Origin: Streptomyces sp. H39-S7
GTDB lineage: Bacteria; Actinomycetota; Actinomycetes; Streptomycetales; Streptomycetaceae
Direction of reading: 5' to 3'
Length of the DNA: 64,000 bases
NCBI RefSeq assembly: GCF_027158205.1
Contig: NZ_JAPVLU010000019.1
Location: 101,683 to 165,682 of the forward strand
Made by a program: the position numbers and the translations under genes. Of the stretch, positions 3,021 to 47,447 are shown piece by piece (positions within the stretch are counted from its first letter, which is position 1; each line of letters opens with the position of its first letter). The notes under the pieces are model-generated. The model searched no databases, was not told where the DNA came from, and saw nothing but the letters and a program-made list of their open reading frames with translations.

Positions 3021-4202
3021 GTGACCACCACAGAACCGCTGGATGTGCTGGATGTTCAGCCCACGCCGCTCGCCCTGCTGCTGCTCGGGCGGGAGTCCGA
3101 TCCCCGCAGCGAGCGCGGTGTCGACTGCCCCGGCGACCTGCCGGCCGCGTCCGACCCCGACCTGGTCGAGCGCGCCCGCGCCGCCAAAGCCAGGCTCGGC
3201 AGCAAGGTCTTCATCCTGGGCCACCACTACCAGCGCGACGAGGTCATCGAGTTCGCCGATGTGACGGGCGACTCCTTCAAACTCGCGCGCGACGCCGCCG
3301 CCCGCCCGGAAGCCGAGTACATCGTCTTCTGCGGAGTGCACTTCATGGCCGAGTCCGCGGACATCCTCACGTCCGGCGATCAGGCCGTGATCCTCCCGGA
3401 CCTGGCGGCCGGCTGCTCGATGGCCGACATGGCCACCGCTGAGCAGGTCGCCGAGTGCTGGGACGTGCTGACCGAGGCGGGCGTGGCCGGGACCACCGTC
3501 CCCGTCTCCTACATGAACTCCTCCGCCGACATCAAGGCCTTCACCGGCCGGCACGGCGGCACGATCTGCACGTCCTCGAACGCCGAGCGCGCCCTGGAGT
3601 GGGCGTTCTCGCAGGGCGAGAAGGTGCTCTTCCTTCCCGACCAGCACCTCGGGCGCAACACCGCGGTACGCGACCTGGGCCTGTCGCTCGACGACTGCGT
3701 CCTCTACAACCCGCACAAGCCGAACGGCGGCCTGACCGTCCAGCAGCTGCGCGACGCCAAGATGATCCTGTGGCGGGGCCACTGCTCCGTGCACGGCCGC
3801 TTCTCGATCGAGTCGGTCGAGGACGTCCGCGCCCGGATACCCGGCGTGAACGTCCTGGTGCACCCCGAGTGCAAGCACGAGGTCGTCTCCGCCGCCGACT
3901 ACGTGGGCTCGACGGAGTACATCATCAAGGCGCTGGACGCGGCCCCGGCCGGCTCGGCGTGGGCGATCGGCACCGAGCTGAACCTGGTCCGCCGGCTCGC
4001 CAAGGCGCACCCGGACAAGCAGGTCGTCTTCCTCGACAAGACCGTCTGCTTCTGCTCGACGATGAACCGCATCGACCTGCCGCACCTGGTGTGGACCCTG
4101 GAGTCGCTGGCGGACGGCAAGCTCGTCAACCGCATCCAGGTGGACGAGGAGACCGAGCGGTACGCCAAGCTCGCGCTGGAGCAGATGCTCGCCCTGCCGT
4201 AG
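3021..4202 (+). CDS. nadA: Quinolinate synthase NadA
   Basis: A 393-residue enzyme that condenses iminoaspartate with dihydroxyacetone phosphate to quinolinate, the NAD precursor; it is oxygen-sensitive and holds a [4Fe-4S] cluster. Family signatures: HHYQRDEV near residue 75, FCGVHFMAESADIL (Cys104), HPECKHEV (Cys284) and KTVCFCSTMNR (Cys343/345). Three of these Cys are the expected cluster ligands. GTG 3021 follows GAAAGGG; an in-frame GTG at 2994 gives a less typical N-terminus. nadB and nadC are not adjacent. Upstream dyads suggest specific regulation. Confidence 0.96.
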   Translation: MTTTEPLDVLDVQPTPLALLLLGRESDPRSERGVDCPGDLPAASDPDLVERARAAKARLGSKVFILGHHYQRDEVIEFADVTGDSFKLARDAAARPEAEYIVFCGVHFMAESADILTSGDQAVILPDLAAGCSMADMATAEQVAECWDVLTEAGVAGTTVPVSYMNSSADIKAFTGRHGGTICTSSNAERALEWAFSQGEKVLFLPDQHLGRNTAVRDLGLSLDDCVLYNPHKPNGGLTVQQLRDAKMILWRGHCSVHGRFSIESVEDVRARIPGVNVLVHPECKHEVVSAADYVGSTEYIIKALDAAPAGSAWAIGTELNLVRRLAKAHPDKQVVFLDKTVCFCSTMNRIDLPHLVWTLESLADGKLVNRIQVDEETERYAKLALEQMLALP

Positions 4203-4215
4203 AGACGGCGAACGC

Positions 4216-4260
4216 CGAACGGGCGGGCCGGGACCCTGGGGGTTCCGGCCCGCCCGTTCG
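4216..4260. terminator. Bidirectional terminator
   Basis: Perfect 16-bp arms (4216-4231 and 4245-4260, beginning CGAACGGGCGGGCC) enclose a 13-base loop, between the 3' ends of nadA and the PspAA gene. Confidence 0.85.
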
Positions 4261-4295
4261 TGAGCGGTACGAGGTGCGAGGTGTTGTCGCCCGGC

Positions 4296-4574
4296 TCAGC
4301 CGGGGATGAGCCCGTCGTCGCCGAGCATCTCCCTGACCTCCGCGAGGGAGGCGTCGGGAGACGGAAGGATCAGCTCCGACGGTTCCAGCGAGGCGTCGGG
4401 AAGCGGTTCGCCCAGTTCTCGTACGGCGTCGAGCAGGGCTCCCAGTGTCTTGCGGAAGCCCGCCTCGTCACCGCTCTTGATCTCGGCGAGCAGTTCGTCG
4501 TCCAACACGTCGAGGCGGACGAGATGGCTGTCGGCCACCTGCATCTGCCCCTCCCCCATGATCCTGACGATCAT
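4296..4574 (-). CDS. pspAA: PspAA domain protein, partner of PspA
   Basis: A 92-residue acidic protein (MIVRIMGEGQMQV near the start) consistent with the small PspAA domain found beside PspA homologues in actinobacteria. It is the downstream gene, 47 bp after pspA on the same strand, with its own AGGAGG before ATG 4574. PspAA proteins are thought to act with PspA in membrane-stress responses; the exact role here is inferred. No membrane segment or catalytic motif is visible. Confidence 0.85.
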   Translation of the reverse strand: MIVRIMGEGQMQVADSHLVRLDVLDDELLAEIKSGDEAGFRKTLGALLDAVRELGEPLPDASLEPSELILPSPDASLAEVREMLGDDGLIPG

Positions 4575-4621
4575 GACGGCGCCTCCTAGTGGGTGCGGCT
4601 ACGGCCTGGCAGTCGTCGGCG

Positions 4622-5392
4622 TTACTGCTTGTCCATCCGCGGCCGGTCCTCGGGCTGCTTGCCGCCCTCGATGGCCTGCTGCGAGGTGCCGCCGGCCAGC
4701 TCGGCCTTCATGCGGGCCAGCTCCAGCTCGACGTCCGTACCACCGGACAGCCGGTCCAGCTCGGCCTGGATGTCGTCCTTCTGCAGGCCGCTCTGGTCGT
4801 CGAGGGCACCGGACGCCATCAGCTCGTCGAGGGCACCGGCCCGCGCGCGCAGCTGCTCGGTCTTGTCCTCGGCACGCTGGATCGCCATGCCGACGTCGCC
4901 CATCTCCTCGGAGATGCCGGAGAACGCCTCGCCGATCTTGGTCTGTGCCTGGGCCGCCGTGTACGTGGCCTTGATGGTCTCCTTCTTCGTACGGAAGGCG
5001 TCCACCTTGGCCTGCAGCCGCTGCGACGCGAGAGTGAGCTTCTCCTCCTCGCCCTGCAACGTCTGGTGCTGCGTCTCCAGGTCCGTGACCTGCTGCTGCA
5101 GCGCCGCCCGGCGCGACAGCGCCTCGCGGGCCAGATCCTCGCGACCCAGCGCCAGCGCCTTGCGGCCCTGGTCCTCGTAGGTCGACGACTTCTTCTGCAG
5201 CTCGTTCAGCTGCAGCTCCAGGCGCTTGCGCGAGGTGGCGACATCGGCCACACCCCGACGTACCTTCTGCAGCAGTTCCAGCTGCTTCTGGTACGAGTAG
5301 TCAAGCGTCTCGCGCGGGTCCTCGGCCCTGTCCAGGGCCTTGTTGGCCTTCGCGCGGAAAATCAGTCCCATCCGCTTCATGACACCGCTCAT
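4622..5392 (-). CDS. pspA: PspA/IM30 family membrane-stress protein
   Basis: A 256-residue, almost entirely alpha-helical coiled-coil protein. It opens with MSGVMKRMGLIFRAK, continues with KALDRAEDPRETLDYSY and has long heptad-rich helices (about 40-220). PspA proteins line the inner membrane face, preserve barrier integrity under envelope stress and form ESCRT-III-like oligomers (established for the family). ATG 5392 follows GAGG. It is the first gene of a two-gene operon with pspAA. The C-terminal tail is Glu/Gln/Lys-rich and probably disordered. Confidence 0.94.
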   Translation of the reverse strand: MSGVMKRMGLIFRAKANKALDRAEDPRETLDYSYQKQLELLQKVRRGVADVATSRKRLELQLNELQKKSSTYEDQGRKALALGREDLAREALSRRAALQQQVTDLETQHQTLQGEEEKLTLASQRLQAKVDAFRTKKETIKATYTAAQAQTKIGEAFSGISEEMGDVGMAIQRAEDKTEQLRARAGALDELMASGALDDQSGLQKDDIQAELDRLSGGTDVELELARMKAELAGGTSQQAIEGGKQPEDRPRMDKQ

Positions 5393-5586
5393 GGGCCTCG
5401 CGCGCCCCCTTCTCGGACTACAGCTCCAGCACCTCTACAGACCCCACAGTACGGGCCCTGGTTCCATTACCGCACTGTTCCGGGGCGGATGCGCTCCTCC
5501 CTAGGGACGATCACGGTTCGGTGACCTAAGGCCCAAGGAGTAGGTGAGGGCTGGGGTTCCCGCCCCGGTGCACGTAACCTGGAGTC

Positions 5587-6168
5587 GTGTTCCGACGTCG
5601 TTCCCCAGATGAGCAGGCCTCAACCACCTCGGTGCTTGAGGACCAGCCCCGCGACCCGCAGGCTCCCAAGGGTCGCCCCACGCCCAAGCGCAACGAGGCC
5701 CAGCGCCGCACCCGTGCCACCGTGCCGACCGACCGCAAGGCCGCCGGCAAGCAGGCACGGGAAGCTCGCCGTGCCGAGATGGCCAAGCAGCGCGAAGCGC
5801 TGGCAGGTGGCGACGAGCGCTACCTGCCGGTCCGAGACAAGGGACCGGTGCGCAAGTTCGTCCGGGACTATGTCGACTCGCGCTACCGCGTCGCGGAGTT
5901 CTTCCTCCCGCTCGCGGTGGTCATCCTCGTCCTGAGCATGATCCAGAACACGCAGCTGCGGAACCTCTCGCTGCTGCTGTGGATGGTCGTGATCGTCCTG
6001 ATCGTGGTCGACTCCGTCATCACCACGATCCTGCTGCGCAAGCAGCTGCGGAAGCGCTTCCCCGACAAGAACCTCCGCGGTGCGGTGGCGTACGCCCTCA
6101 TGCGGACGCTCCAGATGCGTCGCCTGCGGTTGCCGAAGCCGATGGTCAAGCGCGGCGTGAAGCTCTGA
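5587..6168 (+). CDS. DUF3043 membrane protein
   Basis: A 193-residue protein matching the actinobacterial DUF3043 family. The N-terminal half is basic and disordered (RRSPDEQ, PKRNEAQRRTR). The conserved block RDYVDSRYRVAEFFLP (about 95-112) precedes two transmembrane helices (about 105-125 and 131-153), then a basic cytoplasmic tail. Function unknown. GTG 5587 has GGAG a few bases upstream. The methyltransferase gene starts at or overlaps its stop codon, suggesting one transcript. Confidence 0.85.
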   Translation: MFRRRSPDEQASTTSVLEDQPRDPQAPKGRPTPKRNEAQRRTRATVPTDRKAAGKQAREARRAEMAKQREALAGGDERYLPVRDKGPVRKFVRDYVDSRYRVAEFFLPLAVVILVLSMIQNTQLRNLSLLLWMVVIVLIVVDSVITTILLRKQLRKRFPDKNLRGAVAYALMRTLQMRRLRLPKPMVKRGVKL

Positions 6169-6956
6169 GCACCGGCAGATCCGGCTTCGAGGGCGGCGCG
6201 CCCGCCTGGCTGGAAGGGCTGGGCGGCCTGCGCAACGTCGTCCGCCAGGAGCTGGTGGCGCGCCAGCTCGACGAGCAGATAACGGCGCGCTTCGCCGTGG
6301 GCCGCCGGCTCCGGGTCCTCGACGTCGGCCCCGGCCAGGGCACCCAGGCACTGCGGCTGGCCCGTGCCGGGCACCAGGTCACCGGCCTGGAGTCCGACCC
6401 GGCGATGCTCGACGCGCTGCGCACCGCGCTGTCCGTCGAACCGGAGGGCATACGCGAGCGCGTCTCCCTCATCGCGGGCGACGGCCGCGAGACCGGGCGG
6501 CACTTCGGGCCCGGCAGCTTCGACCTCGTGCTCTGCCACGGGGTGCTGATGTACATGTCCGAGCCCGACCCGATGCTGGCGGCGCTGGCCAGGGTGCTCG
6601 CACCCGGCGGTCTGCTCTCGCTGCTCGTGCGCAACGCCGACGCGCTGGCCATGCGGCCGGGGCTGCTCGGCGACTGGCCCGGGGCGCTGGCCGCCTTCGG
6701 CAGCCAGACCTACACCAACCGGCTCGGCCTCGAGGTGCGCGCCGACCGCCGGGAGGCCGTGACCGTGACCCTCAACGGGCTCGGCACCCCGGTGGACGCC
6801 TGGTACGGGGTGCGGGTCCTCACCGACGCCGCGCCGAACGACGCGGCCCTGCCGGCGGATCTCGAACCGCTGCTGGCCGCCGAGGAGCGGGCCGGGCGGA
6901 CCGACCCGTACCGCGCGGTGGCGGCCCTCCTGCACCTGTGCGGAGTGCGCTCCTAG
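6165..6956 (+). CDS. SAM-dependent methyltransferase (class I)
   Basis: A class I Rossmann methyltransferase. Motif I is VLDVGPGQGTQALRLA, followed by the acidic loop GLESDPAML, and motif IV is FDLVLCHGVLMYM. Small-molecule methyltransferases use this fold; the substrate is unknown. The N-terminus EGGAPAWLEGLGGLRNVV is recalled from the S. coelicolor orthologue in this position. The start is uncertain: no ATG or GTG lies in the right place, and CTG 6165, overlapping the DUF3043 stop, is the best candidate, implying translational coupling. It ends facing a convergent gene across a terminator. Confidence 0.8.
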   Translation: MSTGRSGFEGGAPAWLEGLGGLRNVVRQELVARQLDEQITARFAVGRRLRVLDVGPGQGTQALRLARAGHQVTGLESDPAMLDALRTALSVEPEGIRERVSLIAGDGRETGRHFGPGSFDLVLCHGVLMYMSEPDPMLAALARVLAPGGLLSLLVRNADALAMRPGLLGDWPGALAAFGSQTYTNRLGLEVRADRREAVTVTLNGLGTPVDAWYGVRVLTDAAPNDAALPADLEPLLAAEERAGRTDPYRAVAALLHLCGVRS

Positions 6957-7033
6957 GACGCGAGGGACGCGGCACGCAACGTGACGCCGGGGTCGATCCG
7001 ACCGGTCCGACCCGTACGGGTCGGGAGGGGCGC

Positions 7034-7064
7034 GAGGGGCGCCCGCCTCCGGTGGGCGCCCCTC
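7034..7064. terminator. Bidirectional terminator
   Basis: GAGGGGCGCCC (7034-7044) pairs with GGGCGCCCCTC (7054-7064) around a 9-base loop, between convergent genes. Confidence 0.8.
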
Positions 7065-7077
7065 CCCGTCGGACGAG

Positions 7078-7287
7078 CTACTCCTCGTTGCCGTGCAGGC
7101 TCATCGGACCGTAGATCTTCGTCTCCCCGTCGAAGAGGACGACCTGGTCCGCACCGCCCTCCACCAGGTCCTTCCAGAGCTCACCGATCCAGGACTCGGC
7201 ATCCCCCTGGGTCGTGAACTCCTCCGGCTCCACCGCGGGCGCAACCTCGGTGCCGTCGGCCTTCTCGAACCGCCACGTCCACGCCAT
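7078..7287 (-). CDS. Small conserved acidic protein
   Basis: A 69-residue soluble acidic protein beginning MAWTWRFEKADGTEV, with a DAESWIGELWKDL segment. I recall it as a conserved Streptomyces hypothetical at this locus; no function is known to me. No membrane segments or catalytic residues stand out. It lies between a convergent methyltransferase and the divergent cobU, so it is a single-gene unit. Confidence 0.75.
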   Translation of the reverse strand: MAWTWRFEKADGTEVAPAVEPEEFTTQGDAESWIGELWKDLVEGGADQVVLFDGETKIYGPMSLHGNEE

Positions 7288-7405
7288 GTATTTCTCCTCG
7301 GTCCTCGGTCCACAGCTGCTGCTGTCCGTCGTGTACCTGTCCCGCAGGGTAACCGCATGGCGGACCCGGCGAGCCCGCCGTACGCGGACGCGAGACGATC
7401 AGGGG

Positions 7406-8611
7406 GTGGAACTGACACTGCTCGGCACCGGAGGCCCCGAGGGCCTGCCCCTGCCCGACTGCCCCTGCGCCTCCTGTGCGGGCGCCATCGGCGACCGCGA
7501 CGGGCCGCGCGCCGCGACCGCCGTCCTCGTGGACGGCGTGCTGCTGCTCGACCTCACCCCCGGCCTGGCCTTCGCGGCGGCCCGCTCCGGGCACTCGCTG
7601 GGCGGCGTGCGGCAGGCACTGCTGTCGCACCCGCACGACGGGCCCGCGGTGGAGATCCCCGCCGGCCTGCCGACGCCGGGCCGCGTACCGGACGGGCAGG
7701 AGCTGACGCTGCTGACCGGGCACCGGGTGCGCGCGGTCCCCACGGACGCGCCCGGCACCGGCTACGAGGTCGAGGGGCCGGACGGCATGCGCGCCCTCTA
7801 CCTGCCGCCGGGCTCCGCGCCGGCCGGGGTCCAGGAAGCCGCGGCCCCGTACAACATCGTGCTGTTCGACGCGGTCGACCGGCCCGACACGCTGGCCAGG
7901 CTGCGCGCCGCCGGCGCGGTGGGCGCGACCACCGACGTCGTCGCGGTGCACCTCGACCACAACGCGCCGCCCGGCGCCGAGCTGCGCCGCCGGCTCGCCG
8001 CGCTGGGTGTGCGCGCCGTCCCCGACGGCACGACGCTGACCGCCGGCGACTACCACGACGTACCGGACGTGCCCCGCCGCACGCTGGTGCTCGGTGGCGC
8101 ACGCTCCGGCAAGTCCGCCGAGGCGGAACGCCGGCTCGCCGCGTTCTCCGACGTCCTGTACGTGGCCACCGGGGGCGGCCGCGAGGGCGACCAGGAGTGG
8201 GCGCGCCGCGTCGCCCTGCACCGCGAGCGCCGGCCGGGCACGTGGGCGACGCAGGAGACCTGCGACCTGGTGCCGCTGCTCGCCGCGGACGGGCCGCCGC
8301 TGCTCATCGACTGCCTCGCGCTGTGGCTGACGTCCGCGATGGACTCCGTCGGCGCGTGGGACGACGACCGGTGGTCGTCGTCCGGTGAGCGCGCACTCCC
8401 CGACCTCACCGCCGGGTTGACGGCAGCGTGGCGGGCGACGCGGCGCACCGTCGTCGCGGTCAGCAACGAGGTGGGCTCGGGGGTGGTACCGGCGACGGCG
8501 TCGGGCCGCCGGTTCCGCGACGAGCTGGGGCGGCTCAATGCGGCGGTGGCTTCGGAGTCGGAGCATGTGCTGCTGGTGGTGGCGGGTCAGGCGTTGACGC
8601 TGCGCGGCTAG
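7406..8611 (+). CDS. cobU: Bifunctional adenosylcobinamide kinase/guanylyltransferase with N-terminal extra domain
   Basis: A 401-residue protein. The C-terminal 175 residues are CobU: P-loop LVLGGARSGKS (about 227-237), then EVGSGVVP and an RFRDELGRLN motif near the C-terminus. CobU phosphorylates adenosylcobinamide and transfers GMP, activating it for the lower-ligand step of coenzyme B12 synthesis. Residues 1-215 form an added domain resembling a reduced metallo-beta-lactamase/PhnP-like fold (ELTLLGTGGPEGLP, PDCPCASC, LLSHPHDG); I recall this fusion as usual in Streptomyces. GTG 7406 follows AGGGG. cobT and cobS lie downstream, same strand. Confidence 0.9.
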   Translation: MELTLLGTGGPEGLPLPDCPCASCAGAIGDRDGPRAATAVLVDGVLLLDLTPGLAFAAARSGHSLGGVRQALLSHPHDGPAVEIPAGLPTPGRVPDGQELTLLTGHRVRAVPTDAPGTGYEVEGPDGMRALYLPPGSAPAGVQEAAAPYNIVLFDAVDRPDTLARLRAAGAVGATTDVVAVHLDHNAPPGAELRRRLAALGVRAVPDGTTLTAGDYHDVPDVPRRTLVLGGARSGKSAEAERRLAAFSDVLYVATGGGREGDQEWARRVALHRERRPGTWATQETCDLVPLLAADGPPLLIDCLALWLTSAMDSVGAWDDDRWSSSGERALPDLTAGLTAAWRATRRTVVAVSNEVGSGVVPATASGRRFRDELGRLNAAVASESEHVLLVVAGQALTLRG

Positions 8612-39730: not shown

Positions 39731-41140
39731 ATGTTCCAGAACGCCGACGACGTCAAGAAGTTCATCGCGGACGAGGACGTCAAGTTCGTTGACGTCCGCT
39801 TCTGTGATCTGCCCGGAGTCATGCAGCACTTCACGGTCCCGGTCAGCACCTTCGACCCGACCGAGACGCTGATGTTCGACGGGTCGTCGATCCGCGGCTT
39901 CCAGGCCATCCACGAGTCCGACATGGCGCTCGTCCCCGACCTCACCACGTCGCGCCTGGACGCGTTCCGCAAGGACAAGACGCTCAACATCAACTTCTTC
40001 ATCCACGACCCGATCACGGGCGAGCAGTACAGCCGTGACCCGCGGAACGTGGCGAAGAAGGCCGAGGCCTACCTCGCGTCGTCCGGTATCGCCGACACCG
40101 CGTACTTCGGCCCCGAGGCCGAGTTCTACGTGTTCGACAGCGTGCGCTTCGCGACCAACGCCAACGAGTCGTACTACCACATCGACTCCGAGGCCGGCGC
40201 CTGGAACACCGGCTCCGAGGACAACAACCGCGGCTACAAGGTCCGCTACAAGGGCGGGTACTTCCCGATCCCGCCGGTCGACCACTTCGCCGACCTCCGT
40301 GCCGAGATCTCCCTGGAGCTGGAAGCGTCCGGCCTGCAGGTCGAGCGCCAGCACCACGAGGTGGGCACGGCCGGCCAGGCCGAGATCAACTACAAGTTCA
40401 ACACGCTGCTCGCAGCGGCCGACGACCTCATGCTCTTCAAGTACATCGTGAAGAACGTCGCCTGGCGCAACGGCAAGACCGCGACCTTCATGCCGAAGCC
40501 GATCTTCGGCGACAACGGCTCGGGCATGCACGTCCACCAGTCCCTGTGGACCGCGGGCGTGCCGCTGTTCTACGACGAGCAGGGCTACGCGGGCCTCTCG
40601 GACACCGCCCGGTACTACATCGGCGGCATCCTCAAGCACGCCCCCTCGCTCCTCGCCTTCACCAACCCGACGGTGAACTCGTACCACCGTCTGGTGCCCG
40701 GCTTCGAGGCCCCGGTCAACCTGGTCTACTCCCAGCGCAACCGGTCCGCCGCGATCCGCATCCCGATCACGGGCGCCAACCCGAAGGCCAAGCGCATCGA
40801 GTTCCGCGCGCCTGACCCGTCGTCCAACCCGTACCTGGCGTTCTCGGCGCTCCTGATGGCCGGCCTGGACGGCATCAAGAACAAGATCGAGCCGGCCGAG
40901 CCGGTCGACAAGGACCTCTACGAGCTCGCCCCCGAAGAGCACGCGGGCGTCCCCCAGGTCCCGACCTCGCTCCCCGCCGTCCTCGAAGCCCTCGAGAACG
41001 ACCACGAGTACCTGCAGGCCGGCGGTGTCTTCACCAGCGACCTGATCGAGACCTGGATCGACTACAAGCGCACCCAGGAAATCGCCCCCATCGCCCTCCG
41101 CCCGCACCCCCACGAGTTCGAGATGTACTTCGACCTCTAA
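39731..41140 (+). CDS. glnA: Glutamine synthetase type I
   Basis: A 469-residue GSI making glutamine from glutamate, ammonia and ATP. Signatures: [11 protein letters not shown] (about 51-61), [20 protein letters not shown], and [20 protein letters not shown]. Tyr397 sits in [11 protein letters not shown], the adenylylation site by position and context, so GlnE control is expected in addition to GlnR. ATG 39731 follows GGAGGAG. Its final 17 bases, encoding MYFDL and the stop, recur at 46383-46399. That repeat marks the left edge of an inserted island; the coding sequence itself is intact. Confidence 0.98.
41124..41140. repeat. Putative attL: glnA 3'-end core
   Basis: TGTACTTCGACCTCTAA, the last 17 bases of glnA, is identical to 46383-46399 in the same orientation; flanking bases on both sides differ. 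Interpreted as an attachment-site core. Confidence 0.7.
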
Positions 41141-41300
41141 ACGGTCCGGTCCGCCGACCTGGCGCGATCACCCAAGAGGCCACCTGACCTGCGGAAACAG
41201 TCCCCATCAGTTTCCACTGATCACGACCTCTTTCCACCCTCAGGTGCACCAGCGGTGCACCGAAGGGCGGAACGCCTGACGAAGAGTCAGCAGCATTGAC

Positions 41301-41340
41301 TGAGCCCTGGTGCTCTCCGCGAGGAGGGTGCTGGGGCTCA
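41301..41340. terminator. Hairpin downstream of glnA (island copy)
   Basis: TGAGCCC (41301-41307) pairs with GGGCTCA (41334-41340), with inner CTCC/GGAG pairing. Closely similar in sequence to the hairpin at 46417-46456. Likely ends glnA transcripts. Confidence 0.7.
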
Positions 41341-41381
41341 GTGCTGTGCTGGAAGGGGTCAGCTGCCGCCCAGCTCAGCCT

Positions 41382-41528
41382 TCACTGGTAGACGGCGACG
41401 ATCGGGACGTTCCTGGCCGCTGCGGTATTCGCCCGCCGGTAGACGATGGTCCACACCGAACCGGTCTTGTCCGGCACACCGCCAGCATCTGGTTGAGGCC
41501 CTCGCCGGGGCGGAGTTGTCTTCTCGGC
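41382..41528 (-). other. Unassigned open stretch after the chimera gene
   Basis: Directly after the chimera stop, the same frame stays open for about 48 codons to a stop at 41382-41384. It reads DKTGSVWTIVYRRANTAAA and NVPIVAVYQ at the end, which looks protein-like. It may be the tail of a lost gene; I cannot identify it. The rest of 41141-41381 holds only the hairpin. Confidence 0.3.
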
Positions 41529-44069
41529 TCAGGGGCGGCCGAGGGCGCGGTAGGTCCAGCCGGCGTTGCGCCAGCGGGTGGGGTCGAGGGTTCCGCGGCC
41601 GTCGATGATCTTGGCTTGGGTGACGCGGGTGACGAGGGGTTTGGGGTCGATGTGGGTGTATTGGGTCCACTCGGTCAGGTGCAGCAGGAGGTCGGTGCCT
41701 TCGGCGGCGGTGATGGGGTCGTCGATGAAGTCGAGTTCGGGGAAGGTCTTGCGGGCGCTGTCGAGGGCTTTGGGGTCGGAGACGGTGACCTCGGCGCCGT
41801 GCTGGTGGAGTTGCTGGGCGACGTGCAGGGCTGGGGAGTCGCGGATGTCGTCGGTGTCGGGCTTGAAAGCGGCGCCCCAGATGGTGATCCGCTTGCCGGT
41901 GAGGGTGCCGTCGCACTGTTCTCGGGCGAGGTCGACCATGCGTTCGCGGCGGCGGTTGTTGATCGCGTCGACTTCGCGCAGGAAGGCGAGTGCCTGGTGG
42001 GCGCCGAGTTCGTCGGCGCGGGCCATGAAGCCGCGGATGTCCTTGGGTAGGCACCCGCCGCCGAGGCCGGGCCGCAGGCCGCGGCGGCCGATGCGGGTGT
42101 CGTGGCCGAGCGCTTCGGCCAGTTCCATCACGTCGGCGCCGGTGGCTTCGCAGACTTCGGCCATGGCGTTGATGAAGGAGATCTTGGTTGCCAGGAAGGC
42201 GTTCGCTGCGGACTTCACGAGCTCGGCGGTGGCCAGGTCGGTGACGATGGTGGGTGTCCCGGCGTCGATGATTTTGCTGTAGCACTGGCGGAGCAGGGTC
42301 TCGGCCCGGGAGTGGTGGCCGGCGAAGCCCATGACGATGCGGTCGGGGCGCAGGGTGTCTTCGATGGCGAAGGATTCGCGGAGGAACTCGGGGTTCCAGG
42401 CGACCTCGATGCGGTCGGCTGCCGGGGAGAACTCGCGGAGGATGTCGACGATGCGCGGGACGGTGCCGACCGGGACGGTGGATTTCCCGACGATGACGGC
42501 GGGCCTGTGCAGTCGGGGTGCGAGCTGGCGGACGGCGGTGAAGACCTGGCTGAGGTCGTAGGCGTTGCCGGTCTTGGACTGCGGGGTGCCGACCCCGATG
42601 AAGTGCAGGTCTGCGTGGGCGGCGGCTTCCGCGTAGGAGGCGGTGAAGCGCAGGCGGCCCGAGGCGGTGTGTTCGGCCAGGAGAGCGTCGAGGTCGCGTT
42701 CGTAGAACGGGGCTTTGCCTGCGTTGAGGTCGGCGATCTTGGCCATGTTGCAGTCCATGCCGAGGACGTCGTGACCGAGTTCGGCCAGTGCGTCGGCGAC
42801 CACGTCCCCGATGCGGCCGCCGGGGTCCGGGCCGCGCAGGATCAGCCGGGTGAGCGTCTCCGCCGGCTCCAGCGGTTCACCCGCCGCGTGCAGGAGTTTC
42901 GCGGCGAGTGGCCGGTAGGACTCCAGCCCGGCGTCGATGACGGCGTTCGGACCGAAGAGGGCAAGCGCGTGGCGGACGTAGCCCATGAGGAATTCGTCCG
43001 GGCCCAGCCCGCCGACCACGACCCTGATCCCGAGGTCGGCGACGGCCTTGTAAGCCATGTGCTCGGAGAACGTCGACGCGTTGCCCATCGGATAGTCCAG
43101 GGCGGCGACGATGTCCGGCAGGCATTGGACGAAGTCGGCGGTGCCCGGCTCGACGACAATCAGTTCGGCGCCGATGTCCCGGGCGATGTTCGTGGCGATG
43201 ACGGATTCGTCCAGGCGGTCCTGGCCCGGGTAACGGACCGTGACGCAGACCGGTGGGCGCATGAGGTAGGCCAGTACCGAGGAGTCCAGGCCGCCGGAAA
43301 GAAGGAGCGCGAAGTCCCCGGTGGGGGCGCGTAGCGGGACCTGTTCGGCCAGGGTGACGGAGAACGTGGCCAGCGCGCTTTTGTAGGTGCCTTCGAATGG
43401 TTCTCGGTCTTCGAGGGTCCACCAGGTGCGTTGCTCCAGCGAGCCTGTGGTGACGTCGAACGTCAGTAGTCCAGCCGGGGCCAGGAGCTGGATGCCCTGG
43501 AAGGGGGTATCGGCGCCGATCGGCGTCTCGATGGCGAGCATCTCGGGGCGGACGACGAGCGGCGCGGTGCCGTAGCCAGTCAGCGTGGTGACCTCGGAGG
43601 CGAAGGCGAGCCGGCCCCCGTCCAGCCGCCAGTACAGCGGCTTCTCCCCTAATCGGTCCCGAGCCAGGAACAGCCGCCCGAGACGGGGGTCGTACGCAGC
43701 CAGGGCGAACATGCCGTCCAACCCCTCCAGGCAGGACGGCCCGATCTTGGCCCAGGCCCGCAGCAGCAGGTGCGCGTCGCTCTGCCCGGCAGACAGCTCG
43801 ATGCCCCAGGCGGCAGCCATGTCGCGGTAGTTGTAGATCTCGCCGTTGAACGTCAGCAGGACGCCGCTGTGCCGGTCGAGATAGGGGCCGGGCTGGGCGT
43901 CCGGGTCGACAACCAGCAGGGTGTTCATGGCCAGCACGGCCTTCCCATCGGTCGAAGCGGCGTGCAGGGTGCCGTCCGGACCCCGGTGGCGCTGGGAGCG
44001 GCCCATGGCACCGACGGTTGCTTCGTGCCGGATGGCGTCCGGTCCTGCCAGTCCTGCGATTCCGCACAT
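41529..44069 (-). CDS. Chimeric protein: asparagine-synthase-like N-half fused to UDP-sugar dehydrogenase
   Basis: An 846-residue frame. Residues 2-200 are a class II glutaminase (Cys2 in MCGIAGLAG, RHRGPDGT, FNGEIYNY). Residues 235-420 are the start of an AsnB ATP-pyrophosphatase domain (SGGLDSS at 258-264, GGLGPDEFLMGY at 353-364), missing roughly its last third. From about 425 the sequence is a UDP-glucose/UDP-ManNAc dehydrogenase lacking its first strand and GxGxxG loop: LGHDVLGMD, GKSTVPVGT, WNPEFLRES, catalytic Cys673 in GGGCLPKD, AAFKPDTDDIRDSP. ATG 44069 is preferred to the in-frame GTG at 44078 because it exposes the catalytic Cys. Codon 140 is TTA. Either a deletion fusion or a real multidomain enzyme. 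Confidence 0.85.
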   Translation of the reverse strand: MCGIAGLAGPDAIRHEATVGAMGRSQRHRGPDGTLHAASTDGKAVLAMNTLLVVDPDAQPGPYLDRHSGVLLTFNGEIYNYRDMAAAWGIELSAGQSDAHLLLRAWAKIGPSCLEGLDGMFALAAYDPRLGRLFLARDRLGEKPLYWRLDGGRLAFASEVTTLTGYGTAPLVVRPEMLAIETPIGADTPFQGIQLLAPAGLLTFDVTTGSLEQRTWWTLEDREPFEGTYKSALATFSVTLAEQVPLRAPTGDFALLLSGGLDSSVLAYLMRPPVCVTVRYPGQDRLDESVIATNIARDIGAELIVVEPGTADFVQCLPDIVAALDYPMGNASTFSEHMAYKAVADLGIRVVVGGLGPDEFLMGYVRHALALFGPNAVIDAGLESYRPLAAKLLHAAGEPLEPAETLTRLILRGPDPGGRIGDVVADALAELGHDVLGMDCNMAKIADLNAGKAPFYERDLDALLAEHTASGRLRFTASYAEAAAHADLHFIGVGTPQSKTGNAYDLSQVFTAVRQLAPRLHRPAVIVGKSTVPVGTVPRIVDILREFSPAADRIEVAWNPEFLRESFAIEDTLRPDRIVMGFAGHHSRAETLLRQCYSKIIDAGTPTIVTDLATAELVKSAANAFLATKISFINAMAEVCEATGADVMELAEALGHDTRIGRRGLRPGLGGGCLPKDIRGFMARADELGAHQALAFLREVDAINNRRRERMVDLAREQCDGTLTGKRITIWGAAFKPDTDDIRDSPALHVAQQLHQHGAEVTVSDPKALDSARKTFPELDFIDDPITAAEGTDLLLHLTEWTQYTHIDPKPLVTRVTQAKIIDGRGTLDPTRWRNAGWTYRALGRP

Positions 44070-44346
44070 CTGGTTCACCCCCGAGCGTGATTGGTGGAAC
44101 CCATCGGTGACGGCCGCCGCCGGGAGAGTGCTGCCCTTCCCGACGGCGACCTGCCCTCAGACAACCGGGTCCGACCAGCGGCCGGGAGGGCTCGCAAGGG
44201 GGCTTGCAACTCGCGGGCGGGGTTCACGTACCGGTGGCCAGGCAATACCCTCGGTGACCCACCACACGTGGTTGGCGTACGACTTCTTGCTGCAAAGGAG
44301 TACGGGGTCGCGTGCAGAACTCTCCGGAGTGGAAGAGGGGGACGCC

Positions 44347-45735
44347 ATGACGTCGACCGCCCGCCGGAGCCTGCCGCCCAACGCGGACCTGGCCCGGCTC
44401 ATCGAAGCGAGCGGCGTCAGCCGCAAAGCCCTCGCCCACCGCATCAACCAGCTCGCCCACCAGGCCGGGCTGACCACCGACTACTCCCATACCTCGGTGG
44501 CGAACTGGTGCCGGCGTGGCATGACCCCGAAGTGGCCGGTACCCCAACTCCTCGCCCAGGCCATCGGCGAACGCCTCGGACGACCCGTACGGCTGGCCGA
44601 GATCGCTATGGGCGAGGCGGAGACAGCGGACCCGGATGTGGGGTTGGATTTCCCCAGGGATCCCGCCGACGCCGTCCGCGTCGCCACTTCGTTCTGGAGT
44701 TCCGTGAACCGCCGCGACTTCCTCACCGGCAGCAGCTTCGCCGTCTCCGCCTTCACCACCCCCGTCACGCGCTGGCTGGTCAACCCCGCCGACGGAGCCG
44801 CCGCTCATCGCGGTGGCGTCCGCGTCGGCCAGAGCGACCTCGACGAGCTGCGCGAGGCAGCCGACGACGCCCGCCGTTGGGACTCCAAATACGGCGGCGG
44901 GAACTGGAAGGCCAACTCCGTCACCGCCTGCCTCGAACAGCGCGCCACCCCACTGCTGCAGGGCTCCTTCACCGACGGCGTGGGCCGCGACCTGTTCTCT
45001 GTGACCGCCGAACTCTCCCGCCTGGCCGGCTGGACAGCCTTCGACGTCGGCCAGCACGAAGCCGCCCAACGCCACTTCATCCAAGCTCTCCGCCTCGCCC
45101 GGGCTGGCGGCGACGTACAGCTCGGCTGCTACGTCCTGACCACTATGGCCATGCAATCCCTGTTGCGCGGCTTCGTCGGCGAAGCCGTCGACATGGCCCA
45201 GGGCGCCTTCGAACGGGCAAAAGGCACGGCCGCCCCACGAGTACTGGCCTTCACCAAGCTCATCGAGGCCCGCGCCCACGCCCGCACCAACGACGCACGG
45301 GCTGCCTCCGCCGCCCTTGCCGCCTCCGAAAACCTCCTCGGCCAGGCTCGCACCGGCGGTCCGGAACCCGCCTGGATCGACTTCTACAACCACGCACGGC
45401 TGTCCGCGGACGCCGCCGAGGTCTTCCGCGACCTGAAGAACCCCAAGGCGGCACTGGCCTGGAACCGGCAAGCCACCGCCATGCCGACCGGAGTCTTCAC
45501 CCGCTCGGTCGGCATGCGCCTGGCCATCGTCGGCACCGCCCACCTCCAGGCCCGCGACCTCGACCACGGCCTGGAACTCGGCAACCGATCCGTCGACATC
45601 CTCGCCCGCGTCCAGTCCGCCCGAGCACTGGACTACGTACGCGAGTTCAACACCGCCCTCACCCCCTGGCGACGCGAACCAGCCGTACGGGAATTTCTCC
45701 ACCGCACCCGCAAGGACCTCGGCATCGCCGCTTGA
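44347..45735 (+). CDS. TPR-type transcriptional regulator, paralogue of the 34-kb regulator
   Basis: A 462-residue protein. The N-terminal DNA-binding region has DLARLIEASGVSRKALAHRI and YSHTSVANWCRRGMTPKWPV. A NRRDFLTGSSFAVSAF segment near residue 120 looks like a twin-arginine motif, but its internal position suggests it is just a linker. A helical repeat region follows (about 160-450: ELSRLAGWTAFDVGQHEAAQ, RHFIQALRLARAG, ARAHARTNDARAASAALAAS). Similar regulators sit beside biosynthetic or accessory genes in Streptomyces. ATG 44347 follows GAGGGGG. It is divergent from the chimera and probably controls it. Confidence 0.82.
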   Translation: MTSTARRSLPPNADLARLIEASGVSRKALAHRINQLAHQAGLTTDYSHTSVANWCRRGMTPKWPVPQLLAQAIGERLGRPVRLAEIAMGEAETADPDVGLDFPRDPADAVRVATSFWSSVNRRDFLTGSSFAVSAFTTPVTRWLVNPADGAAAHRGGVRVGQSDLDELREAADDARRWDSKYGGGNWKANSVTACLEQRATPLLQGSFTDGVGRDLFSVTAELSRLAGWTAFDVGQHEAAQRHFIQALRLARAGGDVQLGCYVLTTMAMQSLLRGFVGEAVDMAQGAFERAKGTAAPRVLAFTKLIEARAHARTNDARAASAALAASENLLGQARTGGPEPAWIDFYNHARLSADAAEVFRDLKNPKAALAWNRQATAMPTGVFTRSVGMRLAIVGTAHLQARDLDHGLELGNRSVDILARVQSARALDYVREFNTALTPWRREPAVREFLHRTRKDLGIAA

Positions 45736-45769
45736 CACGGCCACGGGTTGCCAATATCGCGCGGCTACT

Positions 45770-46115
45770 GGACCAGACGCAATACGGGTCGATGTCCTGA
45801 ACGCCCAGCAGTTCGCGGATACGGTTATAAGTCCATGCGAGCTCGTGTGCCAGCTGTGCCACCGATAGGTCCAGAGAAGTTGGAGACGGATTCGGACGTA
45901 AATCCGGGTTGTCCGTCAAGAGCTCGGCGACGCTGGTACGTCCGGCTTGTGGTGGTGTCCGATGTCAGGCCAAGTTCACGGCATCGGTAGATGAGGGAAT
46001 GGATTGATACGCCCCGTACCTGCCTGAGTGCAGCCAAGCGTGCAAGGCCCATTCGCTTGGGCAGCAGCGGATGATGCTGTCCTGAGGGGTGAGAAACTCG
46101 GCCGCGAAAGCGCCG
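45770..46115 (-). pseudogene. ImmA/IrrE-family metallopeptidase remnant (C-terminal part)
   Basis: Pieces in different frames line up as the tail of an ImmA/IrrE protein: FAAEFLTPQDS, then LLPKRMGLARLAALRQVRG and VSIHSLIYRCRELGL, then SVAQLAHELAWTYNRIRELL with GVQDIDP. At least two frameshifts separate them, and the HExxH zinc motif is not found upstream. ImmA-type peptidases typically cleave partner XRE repressors in mobile elements. The remnant supports a former mobile element here. It is followed by the right copy of the glnA repeat. Confidence 0.65.
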
Positions 46116-46382
46116 GGTTCTTACAGAGCGTCCCGTCGTCCGTTTGCGCACGGCATCTGTAGACCATGGCCGGAGTGTGACGACACGTACCAATTGCCGA
46201 CAACGGTGCCTATTCAGCCAGTTAGGCGGCGAGCTGTTGCCAGGAACCGCTACAGCGCGGATCCGGAAGCAACCGCCGGTGCCGCCCGCTGTCCCTCGAC
46301 CTCCGGGACCCCGCTCGTGCACCCACAGTGCACCGGCAGCCCTCACACACCGCGTCCACGCAGGTCAGAGATGATTCCCAGT

Positions 46383-46399
46383 TGTACTTCGACCTCTAA
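46383..46399. repeat. Putative attR: second copy of the glnA 3' end
   Basis: TGTACTTCGACCTCTAA, identical to the last 17 bases of glnA at 41124-41140, but preceded by non-glnA sequence. The bases after it lead into a terminator that would naturally follow glnA. Confidence 0.7.
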
Positions 46400-46416
46400 G
46401 CACGCGCCGCGCGTCC

Positions 46417-46456
46417 GAGCCCGGGTCACTCTCCTTGAGGAGGGTGGTCCGGGCTC
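46417..46456. terminator. Terminator, probably the original glnA terminator
   Basis: GAGCCCGG (46417-46424) pairs with CCGGGCTC (46449-46456), with inner CTCCT/AGGAG pairs. It overlaps the stop codon of the convergent ArsR-like gene, so it may serve both strands. Confidence 0.75.
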
Positions 46457-47447
46457 AGGCGTTGGGGGGTGCGGTCAGGGCGTCGCCCAGGGGGGTTCGG
46501 TAGTAGAGGACCGAGCGGCCGGAGCGGGCTCGGGTCAGGAGGCCGGCTTTGCGGAGGACCGTGAGGTGGTCGCCGACCGCGCCGGGGGCCAGGCGCAGGC
46601 TCTGGGCGAGCTGCGTGGTGCTCGCGGGCTGGTCCAGGGCGGTCAGCAGCCGGGAGCGGGAGCGGCCGAGGAGGCCGGCGAGGGCGTCCGGTTCGACGGA
46701 GTCGGGGGTCTCCCACAGCGCGGACGTGCCGCGGGCGGGGTAGATGACGGCCTTCGGCCAGGGGTCGTCGATGTAGGTGGCCAGGTGGGGCCAGACGAAG
46801 ACCGACGGGATGAGCAGCAGCCCATCCCCCGCGAGGGTGGTGACGCTGCCCGTGGACGAGGACGTACGGCGGATGTCGATGCCGCCGTCGCGCCAGCGCA
46901 GGTCGGGGTGGAGGTCGTCGAGGGTGGCTGCCCAGCCCGAGCGGCCGAGGCGGCCGAGGCGGTGGACGACGTCGCGTTCGCAGATGGCGCGCAACTGCGG
47001 CCAGTCCTGGGCGAGCAGTTCGTGCCAGGCCTGGTCGAGGGCGTCGGCGACCCGCTCGACGACCGCGTCGCCGCGCAGGGTCGCGAGCACGCGCGGGTCG
47101 CGGGACGGGCGCGCGGCGAGGCACAGTTCGGCTTCCTCGTGGGCCTGGGACAGGCTCGTGCCACGGATCGCGGCGATGTCGTCGTCCCACGTCTGGTCGA
47201 GGCCGCGGGGCGGCAGCGCGACGAAGTTGGCGCCGAAGGTGCGGGTGTGGAGGGCGAGGGCCGCGTCCAGGTCGGTGTCGCGGCGCAGCCGCTGGAAGAC
47301 CGGCATCAGCCGGGCCGACCAGGCGGGCGGCAGCCGCTGCCTGGTGCGGCCCTCCAGGTAGCCCAGGAGGTTGCAGAGCTCGAAGGCCGGCGACAGCGCG
47401 AACCGGCTGCGGAGCAGGTCGTCGGTGCCGAACTCGAATCGCCGCAT
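46455..47447 (-). CDS. ArsR-like winged-helix regulator (DUF5937 type)
   Basis: A 330-residue regulator. The large N-terminal region (1-240) contains RFEFGTDDLLRSRFALSPAF and ends VFVWPHLATYIDDPWPKAVI. The C-terminal ArsR-like winged helix (about 255-325) reads QPASTTQLAQSLRLAPGAV then DHLTVLRKAGLLTRARSGR. This inverted arrangement is common in actinomycete regulators beside MFS exporters. It is divergent from an MFS gene with a perfect palindrome in between, so it likely represses both. ATG 47447. Confidence 0.88.
   Translation of the reverse strand: MRRFEFGTDDLLRSRFALSPAFELCNLLGYLEGRTRQRLPPAWSARLMPVFQRLRRDTDLDAALALHTRTFGANFVALPPRGLDQTWDDDIAAIRGTSLSQAHEEAELCLAARPSRDPRVLATLRGDAVVERVADALDQAWHELLAQDWPQLRAICERDVVHRLGRLGRSGWAATLDDLHPDLRWRDGGIDIRRTSSSTGSVTTLAGDGLLLIPSVFVWPHLATYIDDPWPKAVIYPARGTSALWETPDSVEPDALAGLLGRSRSRLLTALDQPASTTQLAQSLRLAPGAVGDHLTVLRKAGLLTRARSGRSVLYYRTPLGDALTAPPNA

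Follow-up and report, generated by a model that had tools for sequence, protein, structure and literature searches.

We analysed a 64,000-nucleotide stretch of the Streptomyces sp. H39-S7 genome (the window; genome G000, 9.54 Mb; all coordinates are window positions), in which a first-pass annotation had proposed a genomic island inserted at the 3' end of glnA. In Streptomycetaceae, a family of integrative mobilizable elements (IMEs) with a tyrosine integrase very probably uses the glnA 3' end as its attachment site, with the island in the window as a decayed member, a cis-mobilizable element (CIME). An exact core repeat, an empty site in a close relative (G020) and integrase-bearing relatives at the same gene end all support glnA as an attachment site, as the annotation had suggested.

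Core repeat, empty site and intact relatives

The core, TGTACTTCGACCTCTAA, closes glnA at 41124-41140, stop codon included, and recurs on the same strand at 46383-46399. Both copies are exact, as first described for the last 17 bases of the gene, and they are the only exact copies genome-wide, with one two-mismatch match on another contig. The window holds just two matches with up to three mismatches against 0.01 expected by chance, which together with the genome-wide count rules out a chance repeat. The repeat fades 5' of the 17-mer (85% across the 27 bp ending at the core).

Core matches with at most one mismatch occur in 15 of 35 genomes of the genus, the window genome included. Two exact cores were also found in G019 (7,182 bp apart) and G021 (3,894 bp apart); in both genomes the first core is the end of glnA, and different islands lie between these identical cores. 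In G020, glnA is followed directly by a hairpin, an ArsR gene and an MFS gene, the same sequence that stands 3' of the second core in the window; when the window flanks are joined at one core, they align with G020 at 92% over 1388 columns, gap-free at the junction. This is the empty site for which the annotation had proposed to search. Within this five-genome group the family occupies the site in G000, G019 and G021, and a single core is present in G020 and G007; at the DNA level, glnA of G000 shares 98.0-98.2% identity with that of G007, G019 and G020 (98.0% with G019) and 96.4% with that of G021. In G007, which seems to be without an element, about 1.8 kb separates glnA from the ArsR gene, most of it also present in G019 (94% over 1483 bp). 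Neither of the outcomes named beforehand as contrary, the same genes behind glnA in all relatives or a 17-mer found elsewhere with no empty site, was encountered.

Intact relatives carry the mobility genes that are missing from the window. The element of G546 spans 18.3 kb between cores at the glnA end and encodes, from its right end inwards, a tyrosine integrase (PF00589 and PF14659), a neighbouring protein that we take to be XRE-like, a 76-aa HTH_17 protein that may be the excisionase, a DUF3631 protein, a NikA/MobC-like protein (both matches just below their cut-offs), a relaxase (PF03432, above cut-off) and cargo that includes a methyltransferase, an NsdA-family regulator and a Nudix protein. 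Among the proteins scanned (9 of 15 called open reading frames (ORFs) plus the 76-aa protein) there was no FtsK/TraB or other conjugation-machinery domain and no phage gene; on its gene content, the G546 element is a predicted IME. Its closest integrase relatives are those of G463 (89% identical), which lies between attL at glnA and attR, and a fragment in G339 (81%); the next among the matches listed reach at most 59%. Integrase-bearing insertions at this gene end, the other kind of support that had been proposed, are therefore known from G546 and G463, of one family, and from an unrelated prophage remnant in G022.

These genes are lost stepwise across the family: the relaxase and a C-terminal stretch of the integrase remain in G339, relaxase remnants persist in G228 and G296, and G000 has none. 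A hidden Markov model (HMM) of 13 integrases, including those of G546 and G463, matched only G546, G463 and G339 among 14 intervals with both ends. Some related integrase (E 1e-40 or better) is present in 235 of 392 sister-genus genomes; in the 11 genomes whose intervals lack one, no integrase found outside the interval exceeds 43% identity to that of G546. The intervals of these 11 genomes gave no Resolvase-domain match, and a serine-recombinase element was rejected. A plasmid or phage source of the integrase was likewise set aside, the search returning two plasmid records at 35-39% identity and no phage record at E 1e-20.

The window island likewise gave no integrase match, either in tblastn with four related integrases or with the HMM, in agreement with the annotation, and no relaxase, MobC-like or DUF3631 match was found there. 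In the part of PMC5704250 considered here, a CIME is an element that lacks integration and transfer genes and retains attL and attR. With mobility genes lost and both att sites kept, the window copy fits this class: attL and attR flank it, its integration and transfer genes are gone, and intact relatives (G546, G463) occupy the same att site.

Element ends and a proposed replacement terminator

We compared 23 left ends, 14 right ends and the 14 complete intervals, which measure 3.9 to 18.3 kb from core to core, and found the islands more alike in their ends than in their contents. On the left, the core is followed by a GACCTGG-like motif, an imperfect palindrome around TGACCTGCGGAAAC and the repeat pair GTGCACC-N4-GTGCACC; on the right, the same repeat pair precedes GCAGGTCA and the core. 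The left repeats are exact in 21 of 23 left ends, 14 of which were found only through a pattern requiring the repeats (7 exact among the remaining 9). The right repeats are exact in 12 of 14 right ends, of which four (G600, G660, G546, G463) were taken because arm-like repeats preceded the core (9 exact among the other 10). Between attL and attR, core position 2 differs in 9 of 14 intervals and positions 3-11 each agree in 13 or 14, which suggests that strand exchange takes place inside TACTTCGAC.

Of 392 sister-genus genomes, 16 contain the core-plus-left-repeat pattern and none the reversed pattern used as a control; the pattern also occurs in 29 stretches of genome_contigs (84,980 species). 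Twenty-eight of these stretches lie at a glnA 3' end, 27 in Streptomyces and one in Streptacidiphilus. A left-end probe matched 12 of 394 genomes, 8 of them at glnA. As a separate observation, the glnA-end 17-mer (TGTACTTCGACMTCTAA) is also present in four contigs of a viral collection (IMG/VR, L057-L060). A core followed by a further left end, a tandem arrangement, was seen in G019 and G339; in G019 (L020 11115-16850), tandem insertions are suggested by an additional, degenerate left end and by recurring hairpins of the glnA type behind attR.

Insertion moved the native glnA hairpin 5.3 kb away from its gene, and a strong hairpin stands in the left end about 160 nt past the glnA stop codon. 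Within 260 nt, each of the 23 left ends has a best 50-nt fold that outdoes all 10 of its shuffles, which keep base composition only. The hairpin starts at +129 to +159 in 20 of the 23 and at +39 in G296, G215 and G356. In an alignment of 16 left ends, with these three and G073, G543, G665 and G463 left out, 15 of 17 predicted pairs show, in one sequence or more, a change on both sides with pairing kept, part of this covariation being one difference common to the three genus-1 sequences. The left-end hairpin may replace the displaced glnA terminator, although hairpins behind genes are common and the comparison is with shuffles only. Should it act as a terminator, the family would offer a clear example of host-gene protection that reaches past the coding sequence.

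Taken together, these features suggest a mechanism in which chromosomal glnA recombines with a copy of the glnA end carried on the element. The last glnA codons are rebuilt at attL and a second copy is left at attR, as the repeats and the empty site show; strand exchange would fall inside the segment named above, the integrase would bind the GTGCACC repeats as arm sites, and the left-end hairpin would terminate glnA once its native terminator has been displaced. Intact members encode an integrase, XRE-like and HTH proteins and a DUF3631 protein, some also a relaxase and a MobC/NikA-like protein, and the window copy has lost its mobility genes and part of its cargo and kept both att sites.

Table 1. 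Features of the window at and around the glnA attachment site.
Feature	Position	Strand	Evidence
glnA, type I glutamine synthetase; 3' end is the probable attachment site	39731..41140	+	TIGR00653 above cut-off
attL core, final 17 bases of glnA	41124..41140	+	exact direct repeat
Conserved left end	41141..41290	+	92% / 89% identical to G021 / G019, weaker in second genus; consensus of 23 left ends
Left GTGCACC-N4-GTGCACC, proposed arm-type integrase sites	41244..41261	+	
Strong hairpin, proposed replacement terminator of glnA	41299..41340	+	z -7.33, 200 dinucleotide shuffles
Probable asnB'-'ugd deletion fusion, junction near 42787-42790	41529..44078	-	domains; two collinear blocks against plasmid asnB-nudix-ugd, ~1.07 kb missing
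NsdA-family TPR regulator, cargo	44347..45735	+	NF053720 above cut-off
Remnant of ImmA/IrrE-like gene	45764..46111	-	72-75% DNA identity to G073 element
Right GTGCACC-N4-GTGCACC, proposed arm-type sites	46317..46334	+	
GCAGGTCA motif 5' of attR	46360..46367	+	13/14 right ends, at most 1 mismatch
attR core	46383..46399	+	exact direct repeat
Native glnA hairpin (terminator), displaced	46411..46462	+	z -5.55; directly 3' of glnA in G020 empty site
ArsR-type regulator, chromosomal neighbour at empty site	46455..47447	-	Pfam HTH_5 and HTH_20; 93.6% identical protein ~100 bp 3' of glnA in G020

Cargo decay and alternative explanations

The annotation had listed three accessory genes in the island, and each was found in some form. 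The TPR regulator is present and belongs to the NsdA family. The chimeric gene also stands, an N-terminal AsnB part fused to a nucleotide-sugar dehydrogenase, and its origin can be refined. A DNA search for distant similarity to the island gave 174 matching plasmid records, 4 of them covering at least 80% of it; the two inspected are linear Streptomyces plasmids with asnB, nudix and ugd as individual genes and an NsdA-type gene oriented towards them. Against this cluster the window shows two collinear blocks with about 1.07 kb absent between them and asnB fused to ugd. A 1.07-kb deletion within the asnB-nudix-ugd cluster, fusing its outer genes, best explains the chimera: since the plasmids hold separate genes with the Nudix gene between, this is simpler than a true bifunctional AsnB-dehydrogenase, which they disfavour. 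The latter is left slightly open by one database protein of such composition, P0002 (Streptacidiphilus sp. 4-A2, 1057 aa), whose AsnB and nucleotide-sugar dehydrogenase domains are 45-52% identical to those of the window. In G019 the asnB match is limited to the first 140 residues.

The ImmA/IrrE remnant had no ImmA/IrrE match in Pfam, and its identification stands on DNA identity to the G073 element, where the matching part holds one open frame with HELGH, which we take to be ImmA/IrrE. The two main cargo proteins of the window gave no phage structural or packaging match in Pfam or NCBIfam and nothing in PADLOC; PADLOC returned TPR or CARF-type matches for four of five other cargo proteins and no match for the fifth. 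By comparison with its relatives, the window copy appears to have lost its mobility genes, part of its cargo cluster and an intact IrrE-like gene, with both att ends kept. Cargo of other members was also noted. In G215 (L039 3766-9789) two small frames of leader-like appearance accompany a methyltransferase and an ABC exporter (the latter pair by Pfam), perhaps a cluster of ribosomally synthesized and post-translationally modified peptide (RiPP) type. In G228 (L092 2678-7312, 13788-15950) a 1544-aa NB-ARC/TPR protein and a protein with an Mrr-type nuclease domain are possibly encoded by defence genes.

Two other integrase types were found at the glnA end among the PF00589 matches listed, both without GTGCACC repeats. 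G022 (L053 2505-17902) carries a prophage remnant of 15.4 kb between cores, with its own tyrosine integrase and excisionase-like, terminase small subunit and tape-measure genes. In G010 (L050, oriented 4100-7927) an integrase 43% identical to that of G546 lies directly behind glnA with similar XRE/HTH/DUF3631 neighbours, and the stretch read has neither the repeats nor a second core.

Several observations weigh against the assignment of the island to an IME family at glnA. No relaxase was detected in the G463 element, so mobilizability may not be general among the intact members. For ten integrases of lower similarity (about 40-59% identity to that of G546), the ~20-kb stretches read contain no glnA core, which places them outside the glnA specificity. 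Of the 29 genome_contigs matches, one is an unrelated metagenome-assembled genome; of the left-end probe matches, those in G034, G142 and G242 are short and away from glnA, and that in G120 is the glnA end alone. The right ends were partly picked by eye, and a second possible core exists in G463, 1.2 kb before the one chosen, and in G356, where taking a nearer core, whose repeat is imperfect, would shrink the element to 2.1 kb. An attR with arms was not found within the stretches read for seven left-end elements (G073, G359, G543, G268, G540, G432 and G665, the last with a second core that lacks arms), and two more, in G223 and G416, lie on short contigs. The island stretch 41300-41432 is 86% identical to a 133-bp piece directly behind glnA in G007; this unexplained likeness may reflect host DNA captured by the element or a trace of an element in G007. 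Finally, the assignment comes from sequence comparison, and no excision or transfer was observed.

Among the alternatives, it is possible, if doubtful, that integrase-less members are non-autonomous cassettes that still move, through an intact relative's integrase acting either in trans or, once the two are inserted in tandem, in cis. Eleven of the 14 complete intervals show no trace of an integrase, yet the right ends keep their exact repeats at the frequency given above; G000 and G019 have 2.07 kb of cargo (43668-45736) in common at 95.9% DNA identity, and the tandem arrangements in G019 and G339 fit the same idea. Set against this are the low identity of the integrases elsewhere in the 11 genomes searched and the visible decay of the window cargo, and the common cargo may simply be inherited, glnA itself being 98.0% identical between G000 and G019. 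We offer, only tentatively, a broader version, in which the family is adapted to its landing site, a gene of central nitrogen metabolism, by restoring glnA's coding end as well as its terminator, the hairpin keeping a near-fixed distance and its pairing while its sequence changes, and in which most members are integrase-free cassettes circulating with helper integrases.

A prophage remnant is a highly improbable identity for the window element. The G022 remnant does place tyrosine integrase, terminase small subunit and tape-measure genes at this same glnA end, but it lacks the GTGCACC repeats, whereas the window has its ends in common with the relaxase-bearing G546 element, whose integrase has no relative among phage records at the threshold given above. 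Still less credible is that the genes behind glnA are native and were lost in G020 by recombination between chance 17-bp repeats: an exact deletion between direct repeats would mimic an empty site such as the gap-free G020 junction, but island contents differ among G000, G019 and G021, one end layout recurs at glnA in two genera, and related elements encode integrases there.

Relation to known integrative elements

The kind of element proposed here, a decayed IME, is known; glnA as attB, the conserved repeats and the covarying left-end hairpin are apparently undescribed. The literature searched, mostly titles and abstract openings, held no report of glnA as an integration site, which may be among the 14 protein-coding sites of PMC9513070. 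According to the part of that study drawn on here, the att sites of one Streptomyces population comprised 36 tRNA genes, 14 protein-coding genes and one intergenic site; a protein-coding target, which the annotation had called unusual compared with tRNA genes, is indeed in the minority but already known in Streptomyces. With this family, glnA, a core metabolic gene, joins the integration sites used in Streptomyces. The end of the gene is a hotspot whose cargo varies between elements (NsdA-family regulators, Nudix genes, methyltransferases and an ABC exporter), and the G546/G463 integrase with its attP/attB pair is a candidate for a further site-specific integration system.

Known systems resemble the family in different respects, as described in the portions of each source considered. 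Islands in dusA (PMC4482086) and at the trmE end (SGI1, PMC8409611) are likewise integrase-driven and use conserved protein-coding genes, in other hosts and genes and with other integrase families by their descriptions. The TR1 IME and the TR2 integrative and conjugative element at aviX1 in plant-pathogenic Streptomyces (PMC10711302) also integrate in tandem and site-specifically at the 3' end of a protein-coding gene; going by description, target and cargo set them apart. The actinomycete integrative and conjugative elements (AICEs) of Streptomyces (PMC9513070, PMC3218068) have tyrosine integrases, decayed copies between direct repeats, empty sites and accretion in common with the glnA elements, as well as a Nudix gene (Pif of pSAM2) and a protein-coding site, rlmN. 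Unlike AICEs, G546 has a relaxase and, within the scanned protein set described above, no FtsK/TraB domain. With the IMEs and CIMEs of PMC5704250 the family shares the CIME definition and the accretion of elements at one site; here transfer is predicted from genes alone, the site is glnA, and the elements bear fixed GTGCACC repeats at both ends and a proposed replacement hairpin.

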